Below, piece after piece: positions 16,277 through 43,199 of a stretch of 43,199 nt of DNA. Where the stretch lies: positions 1 to 43,199 of the IMG/VR virus record IMGVR_UViG_3300032046_003483; one strand, written 5' to 3'. Below the pieces are notes generated by a model. It worked only from the letters and a program-made list of their open reading frames with translations, had not been told where the DNA came from and did not search any database. The translations under genes were made by a program, and so were the position numbers. Each line of letters opens with the position of its first letter. The first letter of the stretch is position 1. This stretch comes from a virus.

Positions 16277-19200
16277 TTATGATTTAATATTTATCTCTAA
16301 ATGGGTTTTTCGTATATGCCCATTCATTTTAGGTTTAAATGTCTGGCTAATATCCATCTCTGCTTTCTTTGATTTACCATTCATATGTGGTTTAAATGTT
16401 TTCTTAATATCCATAAAAGGATGGAAATCTGCTACGTCTAGGTGTGGTTCTACTAAATAAGCTGGGCCGGGTGGCGGTGAGGTACAAGTTGAAGTAGATG
16501 TACTAGTTGAAGACGAGGTAGAAGTAGAAGTTGTAGTTGAAGTGCTGGTAGTAGAAGAAGAAGTGGTACTAGTAGATGTAGATGTACTACTCGATGAGGT
16601 TGCTGACGTAGTGGTGGACGTTGACGTAGAAGTACTACTAGACGAAGTTGCCGAAGTGGTAGTAGATGTTGAGGTGGAGGTACTGCTAGAAGTACTTGTG
16701 GTTGAGGTGGACGTAGAAGTACTAGTTGACGTTGACGTACTGCTTGAGGTCGTAGAGGTACTGGTAGAAGTGGAAGTAGACGTAGATGTTGACGTGCTAG
16801 AAGATGTTGTTGATGTGCTAGTAGATGTAGATGTTGATGTCGAAGTTGATGTAGATGTCGAAGATGTACTAGTTGACGTTGAAGTACTAGTGGTGGTAGA
16901 GGTTGAAGTTGATGTAGAAGAAGATGATGTGGCGCTTGTGGTACTAGAGCTAGGAGGTTCTGGCCCTGTAGTCGTACTTGTTGATGTACTGGTAGACGTA
17001 GAAGAAGTACTAGTTGCTGAAGTAGTAGTACTGGTGGATGTAGAAGAACTTGAGGTCGTACTTGTTGAGGTAGATGTACTTGAAGTAGAAGTAACTGAGG
17101 TAGTACTCGTAGACGTAGACGTAGAAGTACTAGTAGAACTACTCGTACTGGAACTCGTAGTTGAGGTGGAAGTACTCGTAGAAGTACTTGTAGATGTGCT
17201 GGAAGATGTACTAGAAGATGTTGTTGAAGTCGAAGTAGAGGTAGACGTACTAGTTGAGGTTGAACTCGTAGAGGTAGCTGAAGTCGTGGTTGAAGTACTC
17301 GTTGAAGTAGATGTAGAGGTAGATGTTGAACTGGTAGTTGTAGATGTACTCGTGGAAGATGTGGTTGAGGTAGAGGTAGAAGTACTGGTAGAACTGGAAC
17401 TACTGGATGTTGTAGAAGTTTGACTAGTGGTAGTTGAAGTTGAAGTGCTAGATGAAGTACTAGTTGTTGTGGGAGGAGTAAGATAACTAGTATCAATATA
17501 GTCAAAATAAGTATAATCTGTAGTGAAAGCAGTTGTATAAAGAATAAGCTCAGTAATGGTTTCTCCAACTTCAGAACCTAATCCATAATAATTCGTCCAC
17601 GTTCCACCATCAATATTACACCTGTAGTGATCATCAGGAACATCAAAGTCAATTCCTATTAAATGCCACTCACCAACTTGCCAAGTACCGATTGTAATAT
17701 CCTTATAAGTATCATTATCCCATAAGTAAGCATTACCATCACTATCTAGTCTGATACTAATATATGCACAAGCCTCACTTCCATATATAGATATACCAGC
17801 ATCACTCGCGCCAGACTTATCATTTTTTTTAATTGCTATATAAACAATACCCTCAGCATATCCGTCTAGTACTCGTTTGTAAGTTGTTGCTGAACCAGAA
17901 ACAACCCTAACACACTTTGTTCCTTCAAAGGTTGGAGTATATGTTCCAACCGTCATATTCCCGTTACTTAACCGGTCAACCCACGAATCCTGTCCTGCTA
18001 GATCTGCATTATTTAAAGTATTAAAGTTCTGTTCATAATCCCACACCGCAACTAATGGAGAGGTAGTCGTAGATGTACTGGTACTACTAGAAGAAGATGA
18101 ACTTGTAGATGTACTTGTTGTTGTACTTGTAGAAGTTGTTGAAGAACTAGTAGAAGTTGCACTCGTGGTTGTAGAAGTACTAGTCGAGGTTGAGGAGGAA
18201 GAAGTAGACGTGCTAGTAGAACTACTCGAAGTTGAAGTACTAGTAGATGAAGTGGAGGTAGCCGATGTGGTTGACGTAGAGGTGCTAGTAGAAGTTGAGG
18301 TTGAGGTTGAACTACTAGTAGTGCTAGTTGAGGTACTGGTAGAAGTGCTTGTACTACTTGAACTCGTAGATGTATGACTCGTTGTAGTGGAAGTGGAAGT
18401 GCTCGTAGAACTAGATGTAGACGTTGAGGTGCTGGTGGAAGTTGTACTTGTACTAGTACTTGTAGATGTACTTGTAGAAGTAGAAGAACTAGTAGAAGAA
18501 CTAGTAGTAGATGTGCTAGTGCTTGTACTAGTGCTCGTAGATGTGGAAGTAGAACTTGATGTAGTCGAAGTAGAAGTACTTGTTGAGGTACTCGTGCTAG
18601 ATGAACTGGTAGAAGTATGACTTGTAGTTGTTGATGTGCTTGTGCTTGTAGATGTACTCGTGGATGTAGAAGAAGTGGAAGTAGAAGTGGAAGTACTTGT
18701 AGATGTACTACTTGTAGTAGAAGTGGAAGTACTTGAAGAGGTGGTTGAAGTAGAAGTAGAAGTCGAAGTGGAAGTACTGGTTGATGTAGAGGAGGTAGTT
18801 GTTGAAGTAGAAGTAGTAGAAGATGAAGAAGTTGTTGGCCCACTCTCCACAGTCGTAAACTTATTATATCCCTCTGAGGCGTCCCCTAAACTCCACGCAC
18901 CCCAAGTATTCGTTCCTAAAGCGTCTTTGGCTCTTACTCTCCAATAGTAATCTGTATTATTTACTAAACCTGCCGCCGCCTGAACTGAATAAGTTATCTG
19001 ATTTCCTGAAGGAAAAGGAGAAGGAGAGCCTGTACCTGAGAAATAAGAGGGAGATTCGGTAGAGGAAAGTTTATCAAGGACAGCTGGGCCATTATACTGA
19101 TAGATATTTCCTTGATTTACCATACTTATATAAAGCTTAGTACCATCTGGTTTAAAATAAGCACCATAAGTACTTGTACCCTGACTTGATAAGTTCAAGA

Positions 19201-20686
19201 ATATTGAATCGTAAGTAGCAGTATCAACACCCCAAGCAGTTGAAAGAGAATACTGGTAAAACTTTCTATTTGCTCTTCCAGGAATATACATCTTTGTTCC
19301 GTCTGAATTAAAGAGAACAATATTTATGTAAGTATCTTGAGTACCTGTATAACTTTTATTGTCATAGGTAACACCGCTTGCCACACTCCAAGCAGTAGAT
19401 AATGAATACTGGTAAACAATATTAACAGATCCAGATACATACATTTTAGTACCATCTGATTTGAAAGTAAGACCAAAAGGAGTTGTAGTTTGAGTTGCAA
19501 CACTATAAGAAGCTGTGTCATAACTAGCAGTACTAACATCCCAAGCAGTACCAAGCGTATATTGGTAAACAGTATCATTCGTTTGTCCGAGGACAAACAT
19601 CTTGAGTCCATTAGATTTAAAAGCAATTCCAAAAGGTTCTGTATCTTGAGTTACAGTAAAACTTTTAGAAGCATAACTTGCTGTAGACAAATCCCAAGCA
19701 GTTGTTAATGTATACTGATAAACAGTATCATTCGCATTTCCCATAATATACAATTTCGTTCCGTCATCGCTAAGTGCGAAATGATAAGGAAATTCGTCCT
19801 GACCTCCTGTATCTAAAGTTTTACTTGCATATGTCATGCTACTTACATCTGAAAATGCCACACCACTACTAAAATCAGTAGTTGTATCAATTTGTACCTC
19901 ATATTCCACTTCATCTGAACTGTCGTCTGTTCCTGTAAAAAGTAAATCAGGGGTTATGCTTACTCCTGTGGCGTTATTGTCGGGGGTATCAATGGTTGTT
20001 GTCGGGGGGGTTGCTGATGAATGTCTTATTTCAAATCCAATCGTTCCTGCTTCATCATTGGCGGCAACCATAGCTCCACCCGTAATAGTTCCTGGGTTGG
20101 CAGTAGGAGTAGCGGTGTTTAAGTAAAGTACAATTCCCTGCGGCCCCCAAGTGTTATTTGAGTATTCAACGTGCCCTCCCCAAGTGCCGCCAGTCATTCC
20201 TGCGATAGCTTCCTCGGTATTATTATCGTCTTGGCACATACAAGCGACCGCTAAAGCACCTGGTAGGGTTGTTGTTACTGTCGGACCTTGAGGGTCGGTA
20301 TCGTGAGCAGTAGTTGAAAAACTGGCAGAGGGAACGCATTGAGCAATCGTGCCAGAAACACGGCCTGTAAATCTATAAATACGCCCTGCTCGGCCTTCAG
20401 TTCCGCCTGCTGTTCCAAATCCGATAGTAGTTCCGTCTTCATCTCCGATTGCGATTTTCCCGAATACCCAATGCCTTGCTGTTGCGGCAGTAGAACCTAC
20501 ATTTGCTGGGCCATATAAAGCCGTCCAGTTAGCGGGCGTTGATGGGCCTGTGGCTGTGCCAGTATAAATAACATGAGCAATAAGAATATCACCCGCAGTT
20601 ATTGTTGCAGGGCATACTACATCTAATGAAGCAAGATTGGTTTCCGTTCCCGCTCCTGCTCCCGCTGAATCGTATGCTATTGCCAT
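16277..20686 (-). CDS. Giant fibre with two mucin-like Ser/Thr tracts
   Basis: 1469 residues. Order: an N-terminal beta domain (1-225); an Ig/FN-like piece; five propeller-like repeats of roughly 50 residues (~280-525; pattern SDGTKMYV...NDTVYQYTLGTAWD); an FN3-like segment (YYWRVRAKDALGTNTWGAWS); Ser/Thr tract 1 (~617-877); a lectin/laminin-G-like globular domain (~878-1070; starts VAVWDYEQNFNTLNNADLAG); Ser/Thr tract 2 (~1072-1402); and a basic tail with repeats of FKPHMNG/FKPKMNG. The tracts are almost only S and T, with no basic residues, and look like acceptors for O-glycans. The 15-gene sugar cassette begins 147 bases upstream. The role as a host-contact fibre is inferred. Confidence 0.75.
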   Translation of the reverse strand: MAIAYDSAGAGAGTETNLASLDVVCPATITAGDILIAHVIYTGTATGPSTPANWTALYGPANVGSTAATARHWVFGKIAIGDEDGTTIGFGTAGGTEGRAGRIYRFTGRVSGTIAQCVPSASFSTTAHDTDPQGPTVTTTLPGALAVACMCQDDNNTEEAIAGMTGGTWGGHVEYSNNTWGPQGIVLYLNTATPTANPGTITGGAMVAANDEAGTIGFEIRHSSATPPTTTIDTPDNNATGVSITPDLLFTGTDDSSDEVEYEVQIDTTTDFSSGVAFSDVSSMTYASKTLDTGGQDEFPYHFALSDDGTKLYIMGNANDTVYQYTLTTAWDLSTASYASKSFTVTQDTEPFGIAFKSNGLKMFVLGQTNDTVYQYTLGTAWDVSTASYDTASYSVATQTTTPFGLTFKSDGTKMYVSGSVNIVYQYSLSTAWSVASGVTYDNKSYTGTQDTYINIVLFNSDGTKMYIPGRANRKFYQYSLSTAWGVDTATYDSIFLNLSSQGTSTYGAYFKPDGTKLYISMVNQGNIYQYNGPAVLDKLSSTESPSYFSGTGSPSPFPSGNQITYSVQAAAGLVNNTDYYWRVRAKDALGTNTWGAWSLGDASEGYNKFTTVESGPTTSSSSTTSTSTTTSSTSTSTSTSTSTSTSTTSSSTSTSTTSSTSTSTSTSTSTSSTSTSTSTSTSTSTTTSHTSTSSSSTSTSTSTSTSTTSSSTSTSTSTSTSTSTSTTSSSTSSSTSTSTSTSTSTSTTSTSTSTSTSSSTSTSTSTTTSHTSTSSSSTSTSTSTSTSTTSSSTSTSTSTSTSTSTTSATSTSSTSTSTSSSSTSTSTSSSSTSTSTSTTTSATSTSSSTTSTSTTTSTSTSSSSSSSTSTSTTTSPLVAVWDYEQNFNTLNNADLAGQDSWVDRLSNGNMTVGTYTPTFEGTKCVRVVSGSATTYKRVLDGYAEGIVYIAIKKNDKSGASDAGISIYGSEACAYISIRLDSDGNAYLWDNDTYKDITIGTWQVGEWHLIGIDFDVPDDHYRCNIDGGTWTNYYGLGSEVGETITELILYTTAFTTDYTYFDYIDTSYLTPPTTTSTSSSTSTSTTTSQTSTTSSSSSSTSTSTSTSTTSSTSTSTTTSSTSTSTSTSTSTSTTTSATSTSSTSTSTSTSTSTSTTSSSTSSSTSTSTSTSTSTSTTSSSTSSSTSTSTSTSTSTTSVTSTSSTSTSTSTTSSSSTSTSTTTSATSTSSTSTSTSTSTTTGPEPPSSSTTSATSSSSTSTSTSTTTSTSTSTSTSSTSTSTSTSTSTSTSTSTTSSSTSTSTSTSTSTSTSTTSSSTSTSTSTSTSTSTTSTSSSTSTSTSTTTSATSSSSTSTSTSTTTSATSSSSTSTSTSTTSSSTTSTSTTTSTSTSSSTSTSTSTCTSPPPGPAYLVEPHLDVADFHPFMDIKKTFKPHMNGKSKKAEMDISQTFKPKMNGHIRKTHLEINIKS
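16478..17470 (-). repeat. Ser/Thr-coding degenerate repeat, tract 2
   Basis: About 330 codons of Ser and Thr only, interrupted by rare residues such as the GPEPP patch and a few Ala, Val or Gln. Ser is written with both AGY and TCN codons and Thr with several ACN codons, so this is not a simple recent DNA repeat. Confidence 0.85.
18056..18835 (-). repeat. Ser/Thr-coding degenerate repeat, tract 1
   Basis: About 260 codons of Ser/Thr with occasional His or Ala (TTSHTSTSSSS occurs twice). Mixed synonymous codons, as in tract 2. The two tracts flank the lectin-like domain of the same fibre. Confidence 0.85.
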
Positions 20687-20833
20687 ATTATTTTATTTAA
20701 CTTAAAAGCATTATTCACTATTGAGTATTTCTCGTCTATTTCGTTTGATATATTGATTGGTATTTTAACCATATTAGCGGGCATTAAAGCCCGTTTTAAA
20801 AGAGCTGGGCTTTAGCCCTAAATCATCTTATTT
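20687..20833 (-). other. Intergenic between cassette and giant fibre, with hairpins
   Basis: 147 bases without a gene. Two dyads lie near the cassette's 3' end: GGGCTTTAGCCC (20807-20818) and CGGGC/GCCCG (20778-20793, followed by TTTT on the + strand). They may end or attenuate the cassette transcript before the fibre gene. The remaining ~90 bases are AT-rich; I see no clear promoter. Confidence 0.45.
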
Positions 20834-21706
20834 TTATAATAAATTCCGGATTCCTTCTTTTATATTAACCTTTGGTTGCCAGTCCAATAAACTTTGAGCT
20901 TTCTGATTGATACCCGATATGTGTTCTGCATCTCCTTTTCTCTTGGGCAGGTATGTTTTTTCTCCACCTATTATATCTGCTATCTCATTTACAGATGTAC
21001 TCTTTTGTGTACATACATTGATAATCTCATTATGCACTTTACTTTCCATCGCCTTAATACAAGCTGAAACTATATCATCCACGTACACAAAATCTCGCGT
21101 CTGTGTACCATCTCCATAAATGGGTAGTTTCTTTCCCTCCTTCTTCAATTTAATAAACTTTGAAATCACAAGAGAATAAGGACTATCCGGATCAGAACGA
21201 GTGCCATAAACATTAAAGAAACGAAGGCATAACGTGTGTAAGCCCAATGTCTTGTCATATCTTTCCATTAAATGCTCTGCTTCTAGTTTGTGTTGAGCGT
21301 ACGGACTTTCAGGTTTAGGTGGTGTCTCTTCTGTAGCATTTTGGGCATCTCCATATATCGCACAGGAAGAAGAAAATATCACCTTCCTAACTTTAGCCAA
21401 TAAGGATTCGTGTAAAATTCTATCAGTCCCCAGAACATTTATCCTTCTGGATTTCTCCGGGTCTTTGACTGAGGCCGGAACTGATGCTAGTGCTGCCAGA
21501 TGAAATACATAGTCTACCGGTTCTTTAAATTTATAATCTATAATATCGTCAGTTGCAACATATGATCCTACAAGTAGATTCCCCATTTTACCCGTACTGA
21601 AATCATCTACAACTAGCACTCTATGACCGAGAGTGATAAGTCGTTCTGCAAGGTGAGAACCTATGAATCCTCCACCTCCGGAAATAAGAATTTTATATTT
21701 TGCCAT
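20834..21706 (-). CDS. NAD-dependent sugar epimerase, WbpP/GalE-like
   Basis: 290 residues, an extended short-chain dehydrogenase. The Rossmann motif is SGGGGFIGSHLAE; the catalytic residues are S113/S114 (FSSSCAIYGD), Y136 and K140 (SPYAQHK). The segments AALASVPASVKDP and FFNVYGTRSDPDSPYS are typical of UDP-GlcNAc/UDP-Glc 4-epimerases such as WbpP. If so it would make UDP-GalNAc or UDP-Gal, a donor for the GT27-like enzyme in this cassette; the substrate is inferred. It is the last gene of the cassette and overlaps the dehydrogenase by 14 bases. Confidence 0.78.
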   Translation of the reverse strand: MAKYKILISGGGGFIGSHLAERLITLGHRVLVVDDFSTGKMGNLLVGSYVATDDIIDYKFKEPVDYVFHLAALASVPASVKDPEKSRRINVLGTDRILHESLLAKVRKVIFSSSCAIYGDAQNATEETPPKPESPYAQHKLEAEHLMERYDKTLGLHTLCLRFFNVYGTRSDPDSPYSLVISKFIKLKKEGKKLPIYGDGTQTRDFVYVDDIVSACIKAMESKVHNEIINVCTQKSTSVNEIADIIGGEKTYLPKRKGDAEHISGINQKAQSLLDWQPKVNIKEGIRNLL

Positions 21707-22484
21707 CTCGAAATTCTAAATTAGAATTCCATATTTGTTTTAAAAACTTCGGATTATATCCCGCTTTCTCGCAGCTTTTAATAAAACCCATTAAATCTTT
21801 CGGTAGGCATTTTCCAGAGAATCCTGCAGCCGAAGGAAATACTGCTGTGTGCATTTTGTCAACGCGTGGGTCAAGTGCCCAACCGTCTCGTGCTTCCCAA
21901 TAGTTAGCCCCGAAGGCATCGCAGGCTCGCCTCATCTCGTTGGCAAATGTAACCTTCATCGCAAAATACACGTTTTCCATATACTTTGCGACTTCAGCAT
22001 CTATTGCCGACATCTGGCGATAATGTTTGGTTGGGCCAGCAATCGGCACAATAATATCTAAAACATAGGTGCAATCTTCTTCTGTTCCCCCGAGAATAAA
22101 CCAAGGGCATTTCTTCTCGTCATTGTGAAAATCCCAAGCAGTGTAGTACTTGCTCTCTCCCAGATACTCTGGAGAGAAAACGATTCTCTTATTGTACTTC
22201 TTTATTAAACGGGCAGTAGTGCCCGGTGATACTGTGGAACGAATCCATATTGGCACTTTAATCCATTTCACGCAGTCTTCTACTATTGAAACATCACACG
22301 TTCCATCCTTAAGCATTGGGGTTGGGACACAGACAACTGCTAGGTCGCATTGATTGACCTCTTCTTTTGTGTCCGACCTATCTCCTAGTGCCGGATCGTA
22401 TTGGACTATCTTATAATGGTCTTTGAAGAAATTAACCATTCCCTTACCTACGTAACCTACGCCTACGATTCCGATTCTTCGCAT
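21693..22484 (-). CDS. UDP-hexose dehydrogenase-like, short form
   Basis: 263 residues against about 400-430 for usual UDP-glucose/UDP-ManNAc dehydrogenases. The NAD site (GIVGVGYVGKGM), the VPTPM segment, STVSPGTT and the catalytic Cys C226 in GFSGKCLPKD are present. The C-terminal UDP-binding domain is missing, so nucleotide-sugar recognition must differ or need a partner. It would oxidise C6 of a sugar nucleotide to a uronate. Because all catalytic parts are present, I read it as a compact phage form rather than a broken gene. Confidence 0.75.
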   Translation of the reverse strand: MRRIGIVGVGYVGKGMVNFFKDHYKIVQYDPALGDRSDTKEEVNQCDLAVVCVPTPMLKDGTCDVSIVEDCVKWIKVPIWIRSTVSPGTTARLIKKYNKRIVFSPEYLGESKYYTAWDFHNDEKKCPWFILGGTEEDCTYVLDIIVPIAGPTKHYRQMSAIDAEVAKYMENVYFAMKVTFANEMRRACDAFGANYWEARDGWALDPRVDKMHTAVFPSAAGFSGKCLPKDLMGFIKSCEKAGYNPKFLKQIWNSNLEFRDGKI

Positions 22485-23068
22485 AGTATTTTTAACACTT
22501 CAGCTATCTCCTTCCTTTGGGAAGGGTGCCAAAAGTGAAAGTTAATGTGATTAAACGGTGAAGTTTGTTTCTCTTTATAATAATAACTTTTAAGCCATAG
22601 GTCTCCGTCTCTCTTGGTGTTGGGTATGTCATACTTGATACCCATCCTGTCACATACTCTCTGTCCCCACTCTGGAGCTTTCTTCCTGCCAAAGGTTACA
22701 TACCAAGTAGATACTTTAACGCCAAAGGTTTTCTCTATCTTGTCTCGCGCCAACCTTAGTTCTCTTTCTCCGCGTTCCTCCGTCAGGTCGCAGTAAAAAT
22801 AATGCCTAGATCCGTGTAGTTCTATAATGTACCGATGCTGATTCTTTTTAATATATTCAACCCATTCAGGATAAACATCTATCCCCTCAGATAGTATCGC
22901 CAGAATACAGGGATAGTTATATTTCTTAAAGGGTTTATCTGCCTCTAAGAATAGTTCAAATGCAGTCTTCCCACCTTCTCTATAGGGTTCCAGATACTTT
23001 CTCCCCTGCTTTGTCCAGAGGGTATTTTGTAAAACATCATCATCACGTATTTGGATTGAGGTATTCAT
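22463..23068 (-). CDS. Polysaccharide-deacetylase-like (CE4) enzyme
   Basis: 201 residues. The N-terminal acidic cluster RDDDV (8-12) and the later H85-x3-H89 pair (ELHGSRH) correspond to the Asp-His-His metal site of NodB-type deacetylases. YPEWVEYIKKN and the WYVTFGRKKAPEWGQ segment also fit the fold. These enzymes remove acetyl groups from N-acetylated sugars. In this cassette it could deacetylate a HexNAc on a glycan. It overlaps neighbours by 22 and 26 bases. Confidence 0.6.
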   Translation of the reverse strand: MNTSIQIRDDDVLQNTLWTKQGRKYLEPYREGGKTAFELFLEADKPFKKYNYPCILAILSEGIDVYPEWVEYIKKNQHRYIIELHGSRHYFYCDLTEERGERELRLARDKIEKTFGVKVSTWYVTFGRKKAPEWGQRVCDRMGIKYDIPNTKRDGDLWLKSYYYKEKQTSPFNHINFHFWHPSQRKEIAEVLKILCEESES

Positions 23069-23783
23069 AAATATAACTAAAGTTAAGTACTCCTTTTGGA
23101 CTTTGGATATGCCCGTCAGATTCCCGTGCTAAATTATAATTCATATAACTCTTTCTTCTTACAAGGTCTAAAGTGTCTCCCTTGTAGACGGCATAGAACT
23201 TACTTACGTTGTCACTTACAATCTCAGCTCGCAGTAATCTTCTTCTCCAGTCAGAACAAGCCCAAGCATATCTTCCGGCAAAGCGTTCATCACATCCTTT
23301 CAGCTTGATATAAACAGAACGCCTAACCATATTAGTATCCTTGTGATAAACCCTCTCTTTTATGCTAACCCATTCTTCCCTCGGCTTATTCAAGACATCT
23401 TCCAGAGGCATTAGGTCTCTTTTCTCTGCACAGATTCTTCCTACTTCCGGTCTCTCTTCAAAACGTGCTAATGCTTTCTCGTAGAAATCTGGGAAGGGTA
23501 TCTGGTCATTATCTTCTATACAAACGAAGTCTCCGGTTGAAATCCAGAAAGCTAAGTTTCTAGCTCCCGTGTAATTCCACTCAATATTCTCATTAACCCG
23601 TGCATAGTGGATAGGACACTTCCTAGGTAACGCCTTAATCATATCAAGTAGGTCAGGTGTCCCACTATCATTTACAACTACTATCTCGTCTGGGATTCTT
23701 GTTGAGTTCATACACTCTCTTATGTGGACTATAGAAACTGGGTGCTGATTATAGCAGGTTATTAAAGTTGACAGTTTAGGCAT
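23043..23783 (-). CDS. Family 2 glycosyltransferase
   Basis: 246 residues with a GT-A fold start (LSTLITCYNQHP), nucleotide-binding VVNDSG, a GARNLAFWISTGDF segment and an acidic metal motif EDNDQ in place of a plain DxD. A late DERFAGRYAWACSDWRRRL segment resembles the acceptor or catalytic ED/W region. It would add one sugar in glycan extension; donor and acceptor are unknown. Confidence 0.75.
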   Translation of the reverse strand: MPKLSTLITCYNQHPVSIVHIRECMNSTRIPDEIVVVNDSGTPDLLDMIKALPRKCPIHYARVNENIEWNYTGARNLAFWISTGDFVCIEDNDQIPFPDFYEKALARFEERPEVGRICAEKRDLMPLEDVLNKPREEWVSIKERVYHKDTNMVRRSVYIKLKGCDERFAGRYAWACSDWRRRLLRAEIVSDNVSKFYAVYKGDTLDLVRRKSYMNYNLARESDGHIQSPKGVLNFSYIYEYLNPNT

Positions 23784-24490
23784 ATCTCTTTTCCGTTAAT
23801 TAGTTTTTTTATAATATCAGGTTGCTTACCCTTTTTCCCCTCATAGCCAGAATAACAACTATCTTTCGTTCCAAGGTTTCCCGCATATGGTGGAGCGGGG
23901 AAAACAATTACCGAATATCCACGTCGGGAAATCTGTCTTGACCATATTGTTCCCGCCTTAACATCTTCTTCAAAAAGACCTATTGCATCAGCGTCTTCTT
24001 TTCTCATTACCCAACAGGAAGAACCTGCCATAGCATTTGTTTCATACGTAATACCATTAACCTCCACAGGGTCTCTCTCGTATTTCGGGTATCTATGTTG
24101 GGTATCGGTTCTCAAGGGGGTAACTAAATGTTTCTGTCCGATAGTTGCTTTTAAAATATCTATACACTTCTCCAACCAACCATTTTGAAATGTTATATCA
24201 TTATCGGTAATACAAATATACTTTCCCTGTGATATTGCCAAACCCTGATTCCTTGCGTGTCCGAACCAGAGATTGCTGGAGTTTCTGATATAATAAGTAA
24301 TCCGATTTTCCTCCGCTTCTTTTAAAAAGAACGTAGAATCCTCCAGACTCCCTCCATTATCAATCACTATCATTTCCACGGGTAAGTGCTTAACCGTTTC
24401 ATACAGATTCTTGAAACACTGCATTCCCAGTTCAGAACGGCTTTTATTTCTGGCGTGATGTATGAATATTATTGAGATTATATCTTCCAT
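23762..24490 (-). CDS. Family 2 glycosyltransferase
   Basis: 242 residues. GT2 features are IISIIFIHHARNKS, MIVIDNGGS, the GHARNQGLAISQGKYICITDND stretch (split here as GHARNQGLAISQ and ITDND) with DND as the metal motif, and GSSCWVMRKEDADAIG. It overlaps the next GT gene by 22 bases and touches the FkbM-type methyltransferase by one base. The C-terminus ends CLNCQL, two Cys that could be structural. Confidence 0.75.
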   Translation of the reverse strand: MEDIISIIFIHHARNKSRSELGMQCFKNLYETVKHLPVEMIVIDNGGSLEDSTFFLKEAEENRITYYIRNSSNLWFGHARNQGLAISQGKYICITDNDITFQNGWLEKCIDILKATIGQKHLVTPLRTDTQHRYPKYERDPVEVNGITYETNAMAGSSCWVMRKEDADAIGLFEEDVKAGTIWSRQISRRGYSVIVFPAPPYAGNLGTKDSCYSGYEGKKGKQPDIIKKLINGKEICLNCQL

Positions 24491-25101: not shown

Positions 25102-26006
25102 TGTAGTAATGTCTTTTGATATTCCAGATATGCTTCTTTATCCCATTCACCCTTCTTCATCCACTTTCTTTTTTTATTAACAGGATAGACTGGCCCGCCA
25201 ACTTTGAACTTTCTCCACGCTATAGAGTGTGGTAGATACTTCTCGGCAACCTGCCTCAATAGGTATTTACCGCAATCGATGTTGTGAATCTTCTCATTCT
25301 CTTTTAGTCCATACATAAACTTATCCAGTTCCTTATTGTCCTGATAGGGTCTCCTATTGGTAATACCGAAATACTTAGCTATATTATTTGACATATCATC
25401 CATATCTTTCCGCATCAATTTAATATTCACCGCACCTACTGCCTGATATACTTCCTTTCCCCGAATCACCTTTTTAATATCCCTTGGATCTTGTCCGGTA
25501 GCGTTCGCTAAAGTTTCTTCTAGTGGTGGCAGTATCTTTTCTATCAATGGTTTATATGGTTTAAAAGTCTCAAAGTCAAAGATGCGATACAGGTGAGTTA
25601 TAATCATATCTCGCGCGTACCCGCACATAGTTTCATCTGGCCCATCCCCTAGCACCACCTCTTTTACTCCGAACTCTTTTAGGGCGCGGTACATAGAGAA
25701 TAAAGGAAAAATGTTGAAGTGGGGGATAGGTCGTCCTATTGCCTTAACCGCCAATTTCATATCTTCATCAAAATTAGATTCAATCAGTTTAACCACAATA
25801 TGCGGTATTCTGAGGTATTTTGCTACAATCTTGGAATATCTGGTTTCGTTATATTTCTCTCCTCCGGGCAATCTGACAGATATAGCGAACTTGGGTTTTA
25901 TAAGTGCTGCCAATAAACTACTGTCTACCCCTCCCGATAAGGTTATTGGCAATCCTTGATATGGTTTTACTGCCTCTATTATAAGTTCCTCAAGTTTTTT
26001 TAACAT
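25098..26006 (-). CDS. Asparagine-synthase-like ATP-dependent amidating enzyme
   Basis: 302 residues. The PP-loop SGGVDSS (24-30) and the GDGPDETMCGY segment (120-130) mark the synthetase half of AsnB. The glutamine-hydrolysing N-terminal domain is absent, so it would use free ammonia or a separate partner. In surface-glycan clusters such proteins can amidate uronic acids; with a UDP-hexose dehydrogenase-like gene nearby, making a uronamide sugar is a reasonable guess, not a proof. It overlaps both neighbours by a few bases. Confidence 0.72.
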   Translation of the reverse strand: MLKKLEELIIEAVKPYQGLPITLSGGVDSSLLAALIKPKFAISVRLPGGEKYNETRYSKIVAKYLRIPHIVVKLIESNFDEDMKLAVKAIGRPIPHFNIFPLFSMYRALKEFGVKEVVLGDGPDETMCGYARDMIITHLYRIFDFETFKPYKPLIEKILPPLEETLANATGQDPRDIKKVIRGKEVYQAVGAVNIKLMRKDMDDMSNNIAKYFGITNRRPYQDNKELDKFMYGLKENEKIHNIDCGKYLLRQVAEKYLPHSIAWRKFKVGGPVYPVNKKRKWMKKGEWDKEAYLEYQKTLLQ

Positions 26007-26665
26007 AGAAAGTTCACGGGTTTATCTAACTTTGTCTTAACGGGTTCACACTTCGGGATATACTTTGCAAACTCAATATCTTTCCTGAAACTATATCCTT
26101 TCACAGCAGAAAGGTGATAGAAAAAATAAGGTAATTTTTTAACCTGCGGATTAGTTTTCCAGTATAGGGGTCTACCATTTTTGTCTGTCGGGACATCACT
26201 TGGATAAGGTTTCTCTACCCTTAATCCATCTCTTCTTTGGAACTTAGAATAAGATTTCCTATTCCAGTATTCTGAATTATCGTAGTATTCGCTATCTAAT
26301 AACTGACAAGGAGATACGGAATAAGCCAGTATATTCGGATCTCTATCAAGTTCTTTAAGGCATAATTCTAATTGTTCTCTTGGCCAGTAGTCATCATCGT
26401 CAAGATGCATAACCCACTCAGTATCAGATAGTCGTATCTGTTCGTTTCTAATATCTGTTAGGTCTGCCAGTTTTTCCACCTTTTCTTGTGAAAGAATTAC
26501 TTTGGCATTTCTCCTCATAAAGTCATATAGTGCCTCTCTTGTGCCGTCATCTGACTTCATAGAAAGAGTTACTATCATCCTGTCCGTGTAAGGTGCAACC
26601 TGTTCCAATACTTTAATGATATAAGGCATTCCGTTGCGGACAATCGTATTTGAAGTTATAGTCAT
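26000..26665 (-). CDS. Family 2 glycosyltransferase, short
   Basis: 221 residues with the opening SNTIVRNGMPYI, an LADLTDIRNEQI helix and a clear metal motif HLDDDDYW. This matches the small GT2 enzymes of surface-glycan clusters. The C-terminus is long and charged and lacks membrane spans, so it is probably a soluble cytoplasmic transferase. Confidence 0.72.
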   Translation of the reverse strand: MTITSNTIVRNGMPYIIKVLEQVAPYTDRMIVTLSMKSDDGTREALYDFMRRNAKVILSQEKVEKLADLTDIRNEQIRLSDTEWVMHLDDDDYWPREQLELCLKELDRDPNILAYSVSPCQLLDSEYYDNSEYWNRKSYSKFQRRDGLRVEKPYPSDVPTDKNGRPLYWKTNPQVKKLPYFFYHLSAVKGYSFRKDIEFAKYIPKCEPVKTKLDKPVNFLC

Positions 26666-27144
26666 TTCCTTAATGCCTTAACCAGTAAATTAGGCAATAC
26701 ACCCTTCCTTCCTATCCTCTTTTCTATTGAAATAATATTGTATCCTATTCTGGGTAATATATCTCTGAACTTTGCCTCATACCATCCGTCTCTATGATAG
26801 GCGTGTTCAGCCTCCTGAGAACCGAAAGCGTGTCTGGTCATCCAGTACGGGTCTTTATAAAAGTTATTGCATATCCCCTCGAAGTCTGGAACTTCTATTA
26901 TCAATAACCCTCCTATTTTCAACCACTGCCTCCACTGTTTTAAAAGTCTCTTGGCTTGTTTCCTGCCAAAGTGTTCAAAGATAAAGTGGGAACGAATTTC
27001 ATCTACGGATTGTTTCGGGTAATTAAGGGTTCTGAAATCGGCTATAATATCCGCTTTCGGATGTTCTATATCTACATTTATATATCCTTCCAATATTCTA
27101 TACCCGCAACCGAGATGCAATTTAATAGGTGATTTTTCTGGCAT
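26662..27144 (-). CDS. Class I SAM methyltransferase, small
   Basis: 160 residues. The SAM site LHLGCGYRILEGYINVDIE is followed by DIIADFRTLNYP, HFIFEHFGR and LKIGGLLIIEVPDFEG, the usual predicted-SAM-methyltransferase layout in O-antigen clusters. It is coupled to the GT2 gene by an ATGA-type overlap. The target is probably a sugar, by context only. Confidence 0.75.
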   Translation of the reverse strand: MPEKSPIKLHLGCGYRILEGYINVDIEHPKADIIADFRTLNYPKQSVDEIRSHFIFEHFGRKQAKRLLKQWRQWLKIGGLLIIEVPDFEGICNNFYKDPYWMTRHAFGSQEAEHAYHRDGWYEAKFRDILPRIGYNIISIEKRIGRKGVLPNLLVKALRK

Positions 27145-27559
27145 TGTCTACTAGTTTTGAAGATGATTGCAATTTTTCTCCTCCGACCTTTGTTACTATC
27201 TTAATATTAAATAATTTACAGGCATCTAATTCTTTTTGTGGCAAATTAGATATATCCCTGTCTCCCCCCTTGGCAAGTATGTCTGGCTTTAAAAAAGTTA
27301 GAGTTTCAGCTATTGTTTCGTCTGTATCTATACATTCCACAACAGAATCTATACATTTTAAGCTTTCAAGAATTTCTTTTCTCTCTAGATACGGCATAAA
27401 TACATATCCTTTTTTCTCTTTTAAAAATCTGTCTGAATTTAAAATTACAACCAATTTATCTCCTAGTTCTTTAGCTGCCTTAAAGTGCCGGATATGTCCA
27501 ACGTGTAGGGGATCATAACCTCCCGAGACAACTACCAATTTTTCGAATGTCTTTATCAT
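27122..27559 (-). CDS. Sugar/alditol-phosphate nucleotidyltransferase, HldE-C/TagD-like
   Basis: 145 residues. The nucleotidyltransferase signature GGYDPLHVGH (13-22) contains the HxGH active site, and DILAKGGDRD the second motif. Similar domains make ADP-heptose (HldE C-terminal part) or CDP-glycerol (TagD). No kinase domain is attached, so an acceptor phosphate must come from the host or another path. It activates an unusual building block for the glycan. Confidence 0.75.
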   Translation of the reverse strand: MIKTFEKLVVVSGGYDPLHVGHIRHFKAAKELGDKLVVILNSDRFLKEKKGYVFMPYLERKEILESLKCIDSVVECIDTDETIAETLTFLKPDILAKGGDRDISNLPQKELDACKLFNIKIVTKVGGEKLQSSSKLVDNARKITY

Positions 27560-28553
27560 TTAAATCTTGGTGAATTGGCACAAATAATCCGCTTCTCCCA
27601 ACTTCTTCTGCTATCGGGAAGTCTCCTAATTTATACCCTAAATGTGAGTAGACTTTTTCTTGGGTAGGAAGAGAACTGAATAACTTGCGGGCTTCAATGC
27701 CCTCACTTTCAAGTTCAATTAGTTTCTCATCCCTTTCCTTTTCTGACCCATACATCACGGGATAACAATGTGGTGATTCAGCCTCCCATTTATTTCCAGT
27801 AATCGCATTTAACTTTGCAACATTTTCTATCCTCTTTTTAATTACCCGATCAGCCTCATCAATTACTGCATCTCCCACTGCTGCTATGAGATTACTCATC
27901 TTTCCGTTAAAACCGAATATATCAAAATGGAATTTATCTAGAATTGTATTTCCCTTCCTGCCGTGATTCCTTATCTGTTTTGCGAGTTCCGCCAGTTCGT
28001 CATCATTAGTCACTATCATTCCTCCCTCTCCGGTACTAATAGTATGTGAAGGATAGAAAGAATAAGTTCCGAAGTCTCCTCGTGGGGTTATTCCAAATGC
28101 CTCACAGCAATCCTCAATAATCCCTACGCCCAATTCTATCAGAGCATCAATGCCACACTTCTTTCCCAGTAGATGAGCCGGCATTATGGCTAAGGTATCT
28201 TCGTTAATCTTTTCTTCTACCAATTCGGTATCTATCTGGAAATTTCTATCAATATCCACAAATATTGGTTTCAATCCATTAATCACTATCGCTTGGGGAT
28301 GTGCTATGAAGGTTAGTGCGGGAACTATAACTTCCCTCTTGGTAGGATATTTTTCATATAAAGCAGCCAATGCGACTATGTTTGCCATACTTCCATTACA
28401 GGTAGATATGGCGTGTTTCATCCCGACATATCTGGTTACCTTATCCTCAAATTCTTTAACAAACCTTCCGTTAGCTAATCTACCCTCGTCTAAACAATTT
28501 TTGATATTTTCTCTAACTTTTTCGTTTATAATGGTAGTGGCTAGGGAAATCAT
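27513..28553 (-). CDS. ColD/RfbH-type PLP sugar 3-dehydratase (DegT family)
   Basis: 346 residues from the ATG at 28553, which forms an ATGA overlap with the upstream dehydratase; an earlier in-frame start at 28619 would overlap by 70 bases. The fold is DegT/DnrJ/EryC1, but where aminotransferases have the PLP-binding Lys this protein reads SFYPSH-TISTGEGGM with His at 170. A His here is the mark of 3-dehydratases such as ColD and RfbH/E1, which remove the 3-hydroxyl from a 4-keto-6-deoxy nucleotide sugar. Following a Gmd-like gene, it suggests a 3,6-dideoxy sugar; the exact product is inference. Confidence 0.75.
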   Translation of the reverse strand: MISLATTIINEKVRENIKNCLDEGRLANGRFVKEFEDKVTRYVGMKHAISTCNGSMANIVALAALYEKYPTKREVIVPALTFIAHPQAIVINGLKPIFVDIDRNFQIDTELVEEKINEDTLAIMPAHLLGKKCGIDALIELGVGIIEDCCEAFGITPRGDFGTYSFYPSHTISTGEGGMIVTNDDELAELAKQIRNHGRKGNTILDKFHFDIFGFNGKMSNLIAAVGDAVIDEADRVIKKRIENVAKLNAITGNKWEAESPHCYPVMYGSEKERDEKLIELESEGIEARKLFSSLPTQEKVYSHLGYKLGDFPIAEEVGRSGLFVPIHQDLNDKDIRKIGSCLGRL

Positions 28554-29518
28554 AATCTTTCTCGCCAAAAGTCCAATAGGTCTTTCAACGATTCTTTTAA
28601 AGGAACTTTGGGATACCAACCAAGAACTTTGTTTGCTTTCTTGGCATCAACAAAAGAGAAAGGTGTATCTACCGGTCGCAGTCTCTTGGGGTCAACTTCT
28701 GTCTTAATAGTTTTAATAGTAGAAAGACTTATCATAATATTAAGGAGATCCTTTATCTTGGTTAATTTTCCACTACCTAGACAAAATACTTCACCCCATT
28801 TCTCACTTCTTAAAGACATAACGTATCCGCGAACCGTATCTTTTGCATCTATGAAATCTCTAGAACTTTCCAAATTACCGTGTCTAATAATAGGTTCTCT
28901 CAACCCTTTTTCCATTTCGGTTATCTGTCTAGCAAAAGAAGAATCAACAAACTGGTCGCCCCTACCAGAACCAGTAATATTTGCTGCTCTGGTAATTACT
29001 ACGGGCATATTAAAAGATTTAGCATAGAACCTGCTAATTAAATCTTGGGCGTATTTGGAAATCCCATAATGTGTATTTGGTGCGGGAACAGTCTCTTCTG
29101 TTTGTGCTCCCTCTATCTCCCCATAAACCTCTGAAGTAGAAGTAACCAATATGTGGGGTATTTTTGGTAACCTTTTGGCTGCCTCAAATAAATTAACCGT
29201 TCCACATACATTGGTATTATATGTTTCCAATGGAGAATCCCAAGACGCTTTTACAAAAGTCTGGGCTGCCAAATGATAAATCTCGTCTGGTTGAACTTCA
29301 TTTAAAACTTTCTCTACTGAAATAAAATCTGTCAGTTCTATCAGGCGTAAAGTCAATTTAGATTCTATATCTCGGATAGTATATAAATCATTTCTCCCCG
29401 GAACTCTGATAGTTCCGTGAACCTCGTTTCCTTCATTAACTAAATATCTAGCCAAATGGGAAGCAGCGAAACCATTTACTCCTGTTATTAAAATTTTAAG
29501 TTTGGATGATTCTTTCAT
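28550..29518 (-). CDS. GDP-mannose 4,6-dehydratase-like enzyme
   Basis: 322 residues. NAD(P) site TGVNGFAASHLARYL; the arginine in HGTIRVPGR that favours NADP; AAQTFVKASWDSPLETYNTN; catalytic STSEVYG and YGISK; and SSRDFIDAKDTVRGY. This is the Gmd/Rmd pattern. It would convert GDP-mannose to GDP-4-keto-6-deoxymannose, the substrate a ColD-type enzyme needs, and that enzyme is encoded directly downstream with a 4-base overlap. A GDP-sugar reductase is also possible from the sequence alone. Confidence 0.78.
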   Translation of the reverse strand: MKESSKLKILITGVNGFAASHLARYLVNEGNEVHGTIRVPGRNDLYTIRDIESKLTLRLIELTDFISVEKVLNEVQPDEIYHLAAQTFVKASWDSPLETYNTNVCGTVNLFEAAKRLPKIPHILVTSTSEVYGEIEGAQTEETVPAPNTHYGISKYAQDLISRFYAKSFNMPVVITRAANITGSGRGDQFVDSSFARQITEMEKGLREPIIRHGNLESSRDFIDAKDTVRGYVMSLRSEKWGEVFCLGSGKLTKIKDLLNIMISLSTIKTIKTEVDPKRLRPVDTPFSFVDAKKANKVLGWYPKVPLKESLKDLLDFWRERL

Positions 29519-30683
29519 CTTTCATTTCCTCTTTAGGATGCCACCCTCGTTTATAAATAAACTCAGGTAAGCGTTCTTCTATAAAGGTTGCTAACTTCTT
29601 TTGCAACTCTGATTTATTATAAAGTTCTTCTGCTGGAGTTCCTTTGATTAGGTGAAGCCAAGTGTCGTGGAAGATTAACATTGACCCGTTGTGTTTTCCG
29701 TGTTTGGCATCGTTCAATACATCCCAAGGTCTTTCCAATAGAATATCGTCTACACTCTTAACAGCCTTCTTGGAAATGTATTTCCTATCCTCTTTGGTTA
29801 CTCTTTTTGCTTCAGTCATTAAACGTTCCATCGTAGCTAGATTCCCTCTCCTCAACCAATTCAAATATGCCCTTTCTGTCCACCCTTCCATTCCGAGTGC
29901 GGTTCCTATCGCTAAAACATTGAATACATAATCATCGTGATTATAGGAATATCCCCTAGGCGCGCATAAGTGATAACCTATTGCCTGCGGGTCTACACAT
30001 ACGGTTGATCCAAACATCCACCATTTCATATCAATATAGAATTCACCTCCTCCATAACATCTGGTGTATGCCGGGTATCCGTCAAACTTAAGGAATTGTT
30101 CTCTCAGGACTCCCAAACAACAATGTCCTTGCATTGGAACATAGAAATAATCATCCTCTGTAAGTCTGTAATTATTCCAAGTACCTTTTATTTCCTCTCC
30201 CAATTTAATCGTGTATTGGTATCCCATCGAAATACCGGGAGGATATGCTCCTAACCATCCTATCGTTCCGTGAACTAGTCCTCCGGTTTCATCTATGGCG
30301 CGTATCATTCTCTGGAAATATCCTCTCTTATAAGACATATGCCCATCTGAGAAAAACAGGTATTTTCCCCGTGCCAGTAGTGCTCCCTTGTTTCTGGTAG
30401 AGTGGTTTCCAGCTATCGGGTCATATATTACCCGTAACATCCTATTCCAGTAGATTCCCCTTGGCATCAGGTAGTCTACCGTTCCTCCACCAGCTCTCTT
30501 ATCTTTAGGTTGCCCATACCAGTCATTACAACAATTAGCGCATATGATAATCTCAAACTCATTAGGTTTTAAAAAGGTTTCCAGATCGTTTATAATTGAT
30601 TGTATTGTAAAGGCGATCTGCGGAAACTCATTACGCGCGGGTATTACTACGGAAACTAATGGCGGTGTGTGTTGAGTACTCAT
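29496..30683 (-). CDS. GT27-like glycosyltransferase, candidate polypeptide O-GalNAc initiator
   Basis: 395 residues with a GT-A fold (VSVVIPARNE). The metal motif is D113-G-H115 (FFSDGHMSY), not DxD. A GGGE segment at 211-214 (RCYGGGEFYIDMKWWMFG) and H238 in AIGYH follow. In animal GALNTs the manganese ligands are D-x-H plus a distant His about 135 residues on, with a WGGE segment shortly before it; here the spacing is 125. The preceding GVLREQFLKFDGYP and the later EGWTERAYLNW also line up with GALNT features. The C-terminal ricin-type lectin domain is absent. GALNTs put the first GalNAc on Ser/Thr of mucin tracts. This is motif comparison by eye; a generic GT2 enzyme is the alternative. 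Confidence 0.65.
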   Translation of the reverse strand: MSTQHTPPLVSVVIPARNEFPQIAFTIQSIINDLETFLKPNEFEIIICANCCNDWYGQPKDKRAGGGTVDYLMPRGIYWNRMLRVIYDPIAGNHSTRNKGALLARGKYLFFSDGHMSYKRGYFQRMIRAIDETGGLVHGTIGWLGAYPPGISMGYQYTIKLGEEIKGTWNNYRLTEDDYFYVPMQGHCCLGVLREQFLKFDGYPAYTRCYGGGEFYIDMKWWMFGSTVCVDPQAIGYHLCAPRGYSYNHDDYVFNVLAIGTALGMEGWTERAYLNWLRRGNLATMERLMTEAKRVTKEDRKYISKKAVKSVDDILLERPWDVLNDAKHGKHNGSMLIFHDTWLHLIKGTPAEELYNKSELQKKLATFIEERLPEFIYKRGWHPKEEMKDERIIQT

Positions 30684-31456
30684 AAAAGTGGTACTTCACA
30701 TTGAAATAACATATGCGGTTCTAGGGTATTTAGTTCTTGCGGTCTTCCGTCTTGGTCTCTGAATAAGACATATTTAAAATGCTTGGTCAAAAGAGCATAC
30801 ATCTCTTGGGGAGACCACTCTCTAACGTGTCTTCTATTGGCAGGTCTCTTTTGAGACTTTCCGTTAGAAACGAGTTGGTTTCTGTTAGGACTGGAGATAT
30901 AACAGATAGTTGAATTGGGTGGCTCAAGATAGTTTCCTGACTTGTCCTTCTTACATAACTTCTTAATGAAGTTAAGAACTAGATTATAGTCTGCGATATG
31001 TTCTATAACCTCTATACAGACTACTATGTCAAACGCCATTATCTCTCTTGTATCAGTCTTAATATCAACTACATCAAAGGTAAGTTGCGGGCCATAATAG
31101 ATATTATTCTTGTGGCGAGTGAACATCTCTTGAGCAAAACGTACGGATGGTTCTGCTATATCTATCCCCCAAGCGAAGTCTGCTTCTTGAGACAGTATAT
31201 TAGTTCCAATCCCGCTTCCGCAACCAATATCTATAATCTTCGGCTTCCAGATAAACTTTGGATACTGGGGATGTGCCTTAACAACATCGATAACACTATC
31301 CCTAATATATTCATACATACTCCTCGTGGATGGATAAAGTACTGCCGACTTCGTTCTTCGAAACATATCCATATTACGAAGCCATTGAGCCTCCTCGTGA
31401 TAATCTCTCTCATCGTGTTCAGTATAACCTTCTTCTAAAATTGATGGATCTGCCAT
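30680..31456 (-). CDS. Class I SAM methyltransferase
   Basis: About 258 residues from the ATG at 31456, one base after the GT4 stop; a start at 31486 would overlap that gene. The SAM site is IIDIGCGSGIGTNIL, then WGIDIAEPSVRFAQE, DIVVCIEVIEHIADY and a YISSPNR segment. It is of the Bin3/UbiG-like sugar or small-molecule methyltransferase type common in surface-glycan clusters. It is coupled to the GT27-like gene by an ATGA overlap. The target is inferred to be the glycan. Confidence 0.75.
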   Translation of the reverse strand: MADPSILEEGYTEHDERDYHEEAQWLRNMDMFRRTKSAVLYPSTRSMYEYIRDSVIDVVKAHPQYPKFIWKPKIIDIGCGSGIGTNILSQEADFAWGIDIAEPSVRFAQEMFTRHKNNIYYGPQLTFDVVDIKTDTREIMAFDIVVCIEVIEHIADYNLVLNFIKKLCKKDKSGNYLEPPNSTICYISSPNRNQLVSNGKSQKRPANRRHVREWSPQEMYALLTKHFKYVLFRDQDGRPQELNTLEPHMLFQCEVPLL

Positions 31457-31457
31457 A

Positions 31458-32726
31458 TTAAAAATCCTCATAAAGTAAAGGTTCAAGTTGGTTCTTAAAG
31501 ACCCAATCGTAATTGAACTTTTGCATCAAATGAGTAAATGCGTTTAGTGGTTTATTTTTATTTATCTCGCTCAGAATTACGAAGGCGACATCGTGATACC
31601 ATTTCTCTTCGTCATCGTAATTAACATTTTCCAGTAGTGAACCGAACTTGAAGTATAGGGCGTTCTTGCCGAAGAAATCTCTTAACGGTTGGAAACTCTC
31701 ATTCAAAACCAATAAACATTTTGAAAGAGCTGCCTCCAATAATATTAACGGACAGTTCTCTGATATTGTCGGGAATATGAACAGGTTAGATAAACGGAAC
31801 AGGTCTCTGACTACTTCCCTTGGAACGCCCTGTTCGTATGTAGGCGCATCCTCTAAGGATGTAAATATCATTTCCCGTTCTGTCAGTCCTTGTTCTTTTC
31901 CGTAATTGATAAGTTTTGCTATTGCATCTTTTTCGTTCTGTGCGTTGGCGTGAGCATTGGGACATATAAACCTGACTGATTTACCCTGTTCTTTTAGTTT
32001 TGCCAAAACCTTTATTACTTTGTCTGGCTTCTTCCCGTCAAACCTAGTTGATGAGATGGGATATACATCTATAATATCAGCATCTAACAGACTGTATTTG
32101 TCTATCAGTTTCGTTACTAGAGGATGCAGGTCATAGAAACTCCTGATGTCTAAGGGATTATAGACTACTCTTACGTCATCTAACACACCAGAATACATCT
32201 CTGCCAGTCTCAATGCATCATAGTCGTTCATATAGATCAACTTAGAATGTGGCATTGTCTTGTACCGGCAGTCGTATGGACTCTGTAGGTTTGCTGGTCT
32301 TAGGGAGGGAGCCGAGTGAACCCAATGAAGCCATTTGCATTTTAGGTTCGATTCCCTCATCCCGACATTGTAATTTAAGAACCATCCTTGGAATATCCAG
32401 TCGTGGGTTAAGGCAACATCTATATCCTGCATATGTTCTTCGAGTGCCTTCTTGGTTCCCTCAACCTGTTCCCTGAAGTCTTTACTTAGGGGTTGGTTGT
32501 GCATATAGTCTACAAGAAGGAATCGAGGGATTACTTTCCTAATCTCGACTCCTTCCGGGACGCTGTCATCTCCATCGAAGTTATCGTGGACAAAGAGAAC
32601 CGTATCGTAGCCGTGTTTAACCAAAGCTAAGAGTTGGTTCTCAACGACAGATGTTAGACTATAGGCTCTACTCCACGTATAGAACGTAGTTAGAACCCCA
32701 ATTTTCTTTTTCTTCGTTACCTCCAT
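31458..32726 (-). CDS. Family 4 (group 1) glycosyltransferase
   Basis: 422 residues with a GT-B fold: N-terminal KIGVLTTFYTWSRAYSLT, a middle VYPISSTRFDGKKPDKVIKV, and the C-terminal FPTISENCPLILLEAALSK, which holds the E-x7-E-type motif that binds the donor. No membrane span. It is the first gene of the cassette, 11 bases after the short Ser/Thr-repeat gene. It probably extends the glycan with an alpha-linked sugar. Confidence 0.8.
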   Translation of the reverse strand: MEVTKKKKIGVLTTFYTWSRAYSLTSVVENQLLALVKHGYDTVLFVHDNFDGDDSVPEGVEIRKVIPRFLLVDYMHNQPLSKDFREQVEGTKKALEEHMQDIDVALTHDWIFQGWFLNYNVGMRESNLKCKWLHWVHSAPSLRPANLQSPYDCRYKTMPHSKLIYMNDYDALRLAEMYSGVLDDVRVVYNPLDIRSFYDLHPLVTKLIDKYSLLDADIIDVYPISSTRFDGKKPDKVIKVLAKLKEQGKSVRFICPNAHANAQNEKDAIAKLINYGKEQGLTEREMIFTSLEDAPTYEQGVPREVVRDLFRLSNLFIFPTISENCPLILLEAALSKCLLVLNESFQPLRDFFGKNALYFKFGSLLENVNYDDEEKWYHDVAFVILSEINKNKPLNAFTHLMQKFNYDWVFKNQLEPLLYEDF

Positions 32727-32737
32727 AGAAGTTTATT

Positions 32738-33316
32738 TTACGGTCTTGCCTCAGTTGTTGTAGTGGATGAACTAGTAGACGTACTGGAACTAGTTGATGT
32801 TGAAGTAGATGTGGTACTGGATGTAGTAGTAGATGTAGTAGTGCTAGATGTGGTAGATGTAGTAGTAGATGTAGAAGATGTACTCGTAGCGGAAGTTGTA
32901 CTAGTGGTAGATGTACTGGTTGAACTACTTGTAGATGTAGTTGTACTGCTAGTTGTAGAAGATGTAAGGTTTGTTGTAGTTGTGGTGGTAGAAGTAGAAC
33001 TTGAAGTAGAAGTACTAGTAGAAGTTGTAGTGCTGGTAGAAGTGCTAGAAGAAGTAGTAGAAGTACTTGTTGATGATGTCGTACTTGTAGTGGTTGAAGT
33101 TGATGATGTTGTACTTGTGGTAGTAGAAGTAGAAGTTGTCGTACTGGTAGTTGTACTAGAAGTAGAAGTTGAAGTACTGGTAGAAGTAGAAGTAGTGCTA
33201 GTAGAAGTAGAAGTAGTGGTTGAGCTTGAAGTAGACGTAGACGTTGAGGTAGACGTAGAACTGGTTGTTGAGAATGTCAGCAACGTTCCTAGATATGATA
33301 ATCCTAAATTTGGCAT
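32738..33316 (-). CDS. Small mucin-like Ser/Thr repeat protein
   Basis: 192 residues. A hydrophobic start (MPNLGLSYLGTLLTF) is followed by about 170 residues of Ser and Thr with hardly any other residue (an NL and two Ala), and the end is TTTTEARP. It lies four bases after a small structural gene and 11 bases before the cassette's first gene. It has no room for an enzymatic domain. It is a likely glycan acceptor, perhaps tethered to the capsid or tail by its N-terminus. The opposite-strand Val/Glu frame is a shadow. Confidence 0.65.
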   Translation of the reverse strand: MPNLGLSYLGTLLTFSTTSSTSTSTSTSTSSSTTTSTSTSTTSTSTSTSTSTSSTTTSTTTSTSTTTSTTSSTSTTTSTTSSTSTSTTSSSTSTSTTTSTSTSTSSSTSTTTTTTNLTSSTTSSTTTSTSSSTSTSTTSTTSATSTSSTSTTTSTTSSTTTSTTTSSTTSTSTSTSSSTSTSSSTTTTEARP

Positions 33317-43145: not shown

Positions 43146-43199
43146 TAGTATAGCATAGTGTAGTGTAGTGTAGTATAGCATAGGTAGTGTAGTGTAGTG
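43146..43199. repeat. TAG-pentamer tandem array at window edge
   Basis: Pentamers TAGTA, TAGCA and TAGTG repeat in a fixed order. A 25-base block (TAGTA-TAGCA-TAGTG-TAGTG-TAGTG) occurs twice, the second time with one base missing. The array runs off the window end. Confidence 0.8.

Follow-up and report, generated by a model that had tools for sequence, protein, structure and literature searches.

A phage locus joining sugar genes to Ser/Thr-tract proteins: a probable O-glycosylation system for virion proteins

The locus described here probably encodes an O-glycosylation system that a phage directs at its own virion proteins. It lies in IMG/VR record IMGVR_UViG_3300032046_003483, the whole of which (43,199 bases) was analysed and is referred to as the window. 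This reading draws on the gene content of the locus, on a constraint that keeps Ser and Thr at the protein level, on the GT27 fold of one enzyme and on the co-occurrence of enzymes and Ser/Thr tracts across related genomes. The term 'mucin-type' (O-GalNAc), applied to the linkage by the first-pass annotation, is kept as a proposed label only.

Layout of the locus and its sugar genes

Fifteen minus-strand ORFs (20834-32726), overlapping at 14 of 14 junctions by 1-70 bp, are placed between the capsid genes (portal and major head protein) and the neck and tail genes. An ORF for a 192-aa Ser/Thr protein flanks them on one side and one for a 1469-aa Ser/Thr protein on the other; 11 bp separate the end of the small Ser/Thr ORF from the first sugar gene, and 147 bp the last sugar gene from the start of the large Ser/Thr ORF. 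The first-pass annotation had this arrangement right in coordinates, order and overlaps. A Megablast search with the locus as query gave no match among named phages. The cassette was annotated from Pfam, NCBIfam and PDB searches, and the features of the region are as follows.

35145-36161, minus: major capsid protein, query for the control set (PHROG major head protein, 2.6e-52)
33321-33650, minus: 109-aa small structural-module protein, encoded ahead of the small Ser/Thr gene in relatives
32738-33316, minus: small Ser/Thr protein, 192 aa, proposed acceptor, adjoining the capsid genes; 15-residue head MPNLGLSYLGTLLTF, then 173 Ser/Thr residues, then EARP (relatives have a gene of this family at the matching position behind the capsid genes)
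31458-32726, minus: GT4-like glycosyltransferase, 422 aa, E-x7-E motif, the enzyme most widely conserved alongside Ser/Thr tracts and a candidate initiator (Pfam Glycos_transf_1, 4e-5; family A5/A7; co-occurrence with tracts)
30680-31486, minus: class I SAM methyltransferase, 268 aa, completing the core triad (occurs with the GT4-like and GT27-like genes in relatives)
29496-30683, minus: GT27-like glycosyltransferase, 395 aa, GT-A fold, D113-x-H115, GGGE 211-214, H238; candidate polypeptide O-glycosyltransferase (PDB profile, AF2 model, Foldseek)
28550-29518, minus: GDP-mannose 4,6-dehydratase/reductase-like enzyme (Pfam GDP_Man_Dehyd, 1.7e-70; best in PDB GDP-6-deoxy-D-lyxo-4-hexulose reductase, 4e-56)
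27513-28619, minus: DegT-family sugar aminotransferase, perosamine-synthase-like (best in PDB perosamine synthetase 3bn1, E 1.8e-47)
27122-27559, minus: cytidylyl/adenylyltransferase, RfaE domain II-like (domain search)
26662-27144, minus: SAM methyltransferase (domain search)
26000-26665, minus: GT2 glycosyltransferase (domain search)
25098-26006, minus: asparagine-synthase-like amidotransferase (domain search)
24490-25101, minus: FkbM-family methyltransferase (domain search)
23762-24490, minus: GT2 glycosyltransferase (domain search)
23043-23783, minus: GT2 glycosyltransferase (domain search)
22463-23068, minus: polysaccharide-deacetylase-like protein, weak match (domain search)
21693-22484, minus: short UDP-sugar dehydrogenase-like protein (domain search)
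20834-21706, minus: NDP-sugar epimerase/dehydratase, GalE-like (domain search)
16277-20686, minus: large Ser/Thr protein, 1469 aa, with N-terminal domains, tract 618-876, a second domain, tract 1073-1400 and a C-terminal tail with a conserved motif; proposed to be a glycosylated stalk or fibre

Besides the two core glycosyltransferases, the cassette thus comprises three of the GT2 type, three methyltransferases, sugar-nucleotide enzymes, one amidotransferase and one weak match to a deacetylase. All 15 had been taken for sugar genes; four of them, i.e., the three methyltransferases and the asparagine-synthase-like amidotransferase, are rather glycan-modifying. The dehydratase/reductase and the aminotransferase, taken as a pair, match GDP-6-deoxyhexose enzymes and perosamine synthetase, and the glycan plausibly includes a perosamine-like sugar. 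Moreover, none of the 15 proteins has a convincing membrane segment (highest 19-residue hydropathy, 1.61), and the usual O-antigen-type, lipid-linked export is therefore not encoded in the cassette; neither a flippase nor a polymerase nor a lipid-linked priming transferase was detected among them.

Outside the cassette, the record contains two (CCATAG)n hexamer arrays (4018-4249 and 4679-4940), whose minus strand encodes repeat peptides rich in Gly and Tyr, with an overlapping Met/Ala/Leu frame. It also has a direct repeat of 54 bp and, at its end, a tandem repeat of 24 bp (positions 2593-2709 and 43145-43199).

Composition and constraint of the Ser/Thr tracts

The tract of the small protein spans residues 16-188, and those of the large protein cover residues 618-876, where 255 of 259 are Ser or Thr, and 1073-1400 (about 328 residues); the Ser/Thr content across the ORFs of the window is 16%. 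The first-pass annotation described the tracts as only Ser and Thr, and they are nearly pure, the description being true to about 97-99%. Chance is an inadequate source for them, because no mixed Ser/Thr tract of at least 20 aa occurred in 42 random viral loci (387 kb). Each long tract draws on almost the full set of Ser and Thr codons, with both the AGY and the TCN blocks of Ser in use, which rules out an origin of the tracts as DNA repeats. In three pairs of close relatives we further counted 48 codon differences within the tracts—41 synonymous, 6 Ser/Thr swaps and 1 leaving the class. Random single changes would be expected to be synonymous in about 30% of cases, to swap Ser and Thr in about 10% and to leave the class in about 59%, such that Ser/Thr was kept in 47 of 48 differences against some 41% expected (P ~1e-17). 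Varied codon use, together with these 47 differences, indicates that the constraint acts on the protein and on its hydroxyl residues.

Within the capsid group of the window, the small Ser/Thr proteins have a short head (e.g., M-A-E-F or M-P-N-L) and are encoded directly behind the capsid genes. The large ones start with differing N-terminal domains, followed by the tract and, in 20 of 23 proteins, by a conserved C-terminal tail that follows the pattern P-x-L-[DE]-I-x(3-4)-P-I-L-[DE]-I. A varied N-terminal domain, a tract and a shared tail suggest stalks with a tip domain and a common anchor. At 49-192 aa, the small Ser/Thr proteins also offer compact substrates for trying new polypeptide glycosyltransferases.

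Enzymes and tracts in related genomes

Searches with the GT27-like enzyme gave 17 viral contigs, and the GT4-like, methyltransferase and GT27-like genes recur together as a triad in relatives. Ser/Thr tracts were present in every one of the 17 records of at least 25 kb that carry a close GT4-like gene and were read whole (G000-G005, G007-G009, G011, G012, G015, G016, G018 and G066-G068), about 15 of which are distinct, since G007/G008 and G015/G016 are near duplicates. Three further records with tracts and no GT4-like gene (G021, G022 and L083) were left out of this count because the contigs measure only 15-20 kb. A control set was drawn by capsid protein alone: tracts were absent from all four IMG/VR capsid relatives lacking GT4-like and GT27-like genes (G014, G017, G019 and G020; 23-41 kb), and six named phages with related capsids had neither a tract (0/6) nor a GT4-like enzyme (0/6). 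On the capsid tree, the tract-free relatives belong mainly to one outgroup clade and the minimum is three presence/absence changes, so the counts are not independent events and the co-occurrence evidence extends to few independent changes. A query with the neck protein found no relatives. The contig L007 has an identical capsid gene and stops just before the Ser/Thr region, probably at an assembly break.

We also sampled in the reverse direction, blind to the enzymes, with the DNA pattern (WCN)18 for Ser/Thr codons (80 loci sampled, 32 records checked). Most matches were poly-Ser or poly-Thr and served as a contrast; a GT4-like homolog was found in three of four records with mixed Ser/Thr tracts and in none of the 28 others. 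Two of the records retrieved in this way differ in capsid type and share the gene order, namely a capsid gene, two to three small Ser/Thr genes, the GT4-like gene and sugar genes. The pattern is hence common to at least two capsid types, and it extends to larger, distant genomes. A GT4-like profile reached 186 viral stretches, 80 of which were kept, and tracts were seen in 37 of 74 new GT4-like loci within the 4-21 kb fetched. Among nine distant GT4-like records read whole, two had strict tracts, four had looser Thr/Ser-rich ones and three had none. A sugar cassette without a Ser/Thr gene, which the first-pass annotation named as evidence that would count against it, appears in no close relative of at least 25 kb, but it does appear in three distant records (G071, G072 and G075; 31-48 kb, possibly incomplete fragments), which carry a distant GT4-like gene and no Ser/Thr-rich tract.

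The proposal that the acceptor genes border the enzymes as a rule was not upheld, as the triad lies elsewhere in the genome in G004, G009, G011 and G012. In such cases the Ser/Thr genes hold their position behind the capsid and neck genes, and the variable sugar genes stay between the small and the large Ser/Thr genes. The glycan genes themselves differ between relatives.

Candidate initiators, alternative readings and known systems

GT27 enzymes start O-glycans on mucin-like tracts. For the GT27-like enzyme of the window, a single-sequence search gave a weak result; a 19-row profile against PDB placed GalNAc-transferases on top (E 8e-6). An initial model built from 5 sequences was poor (pLDDT 50) and was set aside, and a second AF2 model reached a pLDDT of 85.6. 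In a Foldseek comparison of this model with PDB, the best 50 matches were all polypeptide GalNAc-transferases (best E 8e-16; TMq 0.49-0.61), in support of the earlier assignment of the 29496-30683 product to a GT27-like class. D113, H115, GGGE 211-214 and H238, invariant in the family alignment, line up with the metal ligands and the GGE region of GalNAc-transferases. The C-terminal ricin-type lectin domain that is usual in animal GalNAc-transferases is not catalytic; a Pfam scan detected none in the 395-aa phage enzyme, whose modelled C-terminus is helical. Given this missing domain alongside the match in fold and ligands, we call the enzyme GT27-like. The model shows a GT-A fold with GalNAc-transferase metal ligands; a fold match of this kind does not by itself establish a polypeptide acceptor.

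No match to the GT27-like profile was obtained in bacterial genomes, and the Tunturi_4 phage has a distant GT27-like gene and no tracts. Three loci carry intein-like inserts of about 300 aa at one common site of the GT27-like enzyme (L019:1979-4096, L020:8597-10639 and L021:8645-10648). A single in-frame TGA lies inside the GT27-like match of G066 (G066:C1:14602-15720), and another inside the GT4-like match of G006 (G006:C1:14395-15657).

The GT4-like gene partners tracts across more genomes than the GT27-like gene does, and G035 and G036 combine it with Ser/Thr tracts where the GT27-like profile finds nothing. The GT4-like enzyme may consequently be an initiator, judging from its wider association with tracts: the fold favours the GT27-like enzyme in this role, and the breadth of co-occurrence favours the GT4-like one. 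A variant of the main reading, in which the GT4-like enzyme initiates on the polypeptide, with a subsequent sugar added by the GT27-like enzyme to a glycan that is not mucin-type, is a serious possibility that falls somewhat short of probable. It would resemble GtfA/GtfB, as enzymes of the GtfA type are known to initiate on serine-rich repeat proteins (PMC5207161, PMC6973325), yet the GT4-like profile reached no GtfA in PDB at E up to 1 and the GT27 fold is the one classically associated with polypeptide initiators.

Outside viral contigs, the GT4-like profile found only six loci in bacterial genomes, and tblastn with the GT4-like enzyme of the window and two distant homologs found none in 50,697 phage records. 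L309, a phage-like region in a Deltaproteobacteria MAG, combines a GT4-like and a GT27-like gene with one for a Ser/Thr-tract protein, which hints at a host; in L313, an Anaerolineales MAG, genes resembling a phage-tail-like particle adjoin the GT4-like gene. In Paenibacillus (L312 and L314) the gene adjoins one whose product is a repeat protein some 1,650 aa long, a case not counted as support because a clear Ser/Thr tract is missing from this neighbour.

Serotype conversion by phages is firmly documented, and the cassette has sugar-nucleotide, perosamine-like and GT2 genes of a type associated with O-antigens. The glycan genes could accordingly act on the host surface, either converting the serotype or masking receptors against superinfection, with the Ser/Thr tracts as plain flexible linkers that lie beside them by chance. 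We regard this as unlikely, for the cassette lacks the flippase, polymerase, lipid-linked priming transferase and clear membrane segments noted above, the tracts accompany the GT4-like gene in different capsid types, also where the genes are far apart, and the enzyme fold matches GT27. Modification of another target such as phage DNA, often the substrate of phage glycosyltransferases (PMC12619734), with the tracts as unmodified spacers or phosphorylated segments, is very improbable, as it would leave unexplained both the co-occurrence with hydroxyl-only tracts and the match to polypeptide GalNAc-transferases.

Glycosylation of the phage's own virion proteins, the core idea of the first-pass annotation, is strongly supported by the GT27 fold, the recurrence in relatives and the lack of tracts in genomes without the enzymes; the bordering arrangement, the sole emphasis on the GT27-like enzyme and the term 'mucin-type' call for revision. 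In the mechanism that we propose, the acceptors would be the Ser/Thr tracts of the small capsid-neighbour protein and of the large neck/tail-neighbour proteins. In the host cytoplasm, before assembly, the core triad (GT4-like, methyltransferase and GT27-like) would initiate a glycan on the side-chain hydroxyls and extend it; the variable set of sugar-nucleotide enzymes and additional transferases would then elaborate it into a genome-specific structure. A heavily substituted tract could form a stiff stalk bearing the N-terminal domain, with the conserved C-terminal tail as virion anchor, and may serve adsorption, shielding or spacing.

The triad and the putative Ser/Thr acceptor proteins recur in many uncultured phage lineages. 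We advance, tentatively and at not quite an even chance, the broader idea of a widespread class of phages of uncultured bacteria with true mucin-like bottle-brush stalks, in which a GT27-fold initiator, a new GT4-type one or both act on dedicated Ser/Thr-only virion proteins and the modular glycan set varies. If true, mucin-like coats would be a common phage strategy and a GT27-fold enzyme would operate in viruses of bacteria.

Compared with animal and Toxoplasma GT27 enzymes, the phage enzyme shares the fold, the D-x-H and third-His metal ligands and the GGE region, but it has neither a lectin domain nor a membrane anchor, is 14-18% identical and has a predicted transferase activity. Serine-rich repeat adhesins are encoded with their own intracellular GtfA/GtfB enzymes (PMC5207161, PMC6973325); a Ser-rich acceptor adjoins glycosyltransferase genes in both systems, whereas those acceptors are bacterial surface adhesins with accessory Sec export, and a sequence link to GtfA was not found here. 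In contrast to the phage serotype-conversion (Gtr) cassette, neither a membrane flippase GtrA nor a polytopic transferase is present among the 15 proteins. No phage GT27 or Ser/Thr-tract system was found in the open-access literature, the scope of this search, which misses most subscription papers. The nearest system is mycobacteriophage virion glycosylation, reportedly treated by Freeman et al. (2023, Cell Host Microbe). Virion protein glycosylation by phages is known from some actinobacteriophages, and mycobacteriophage-encoded glycosyltransferases decorate the phages' own capsid and tail proteins, as stated in PMC12619734 and PMC13313380, the first of which places the glycans at the C-termini of capsid and tail tube subunits. 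Both systems involve phage-encoded glycosyltransferases, with acceptors on the phage's own virion proteins proposed here; the capsid and major tail protein of Che8 have no Ser/Thr tract, whereas the proposed acceptors in our locus are dedicated proteins with tracts of tens to hundreds of Ser/Thr residues.
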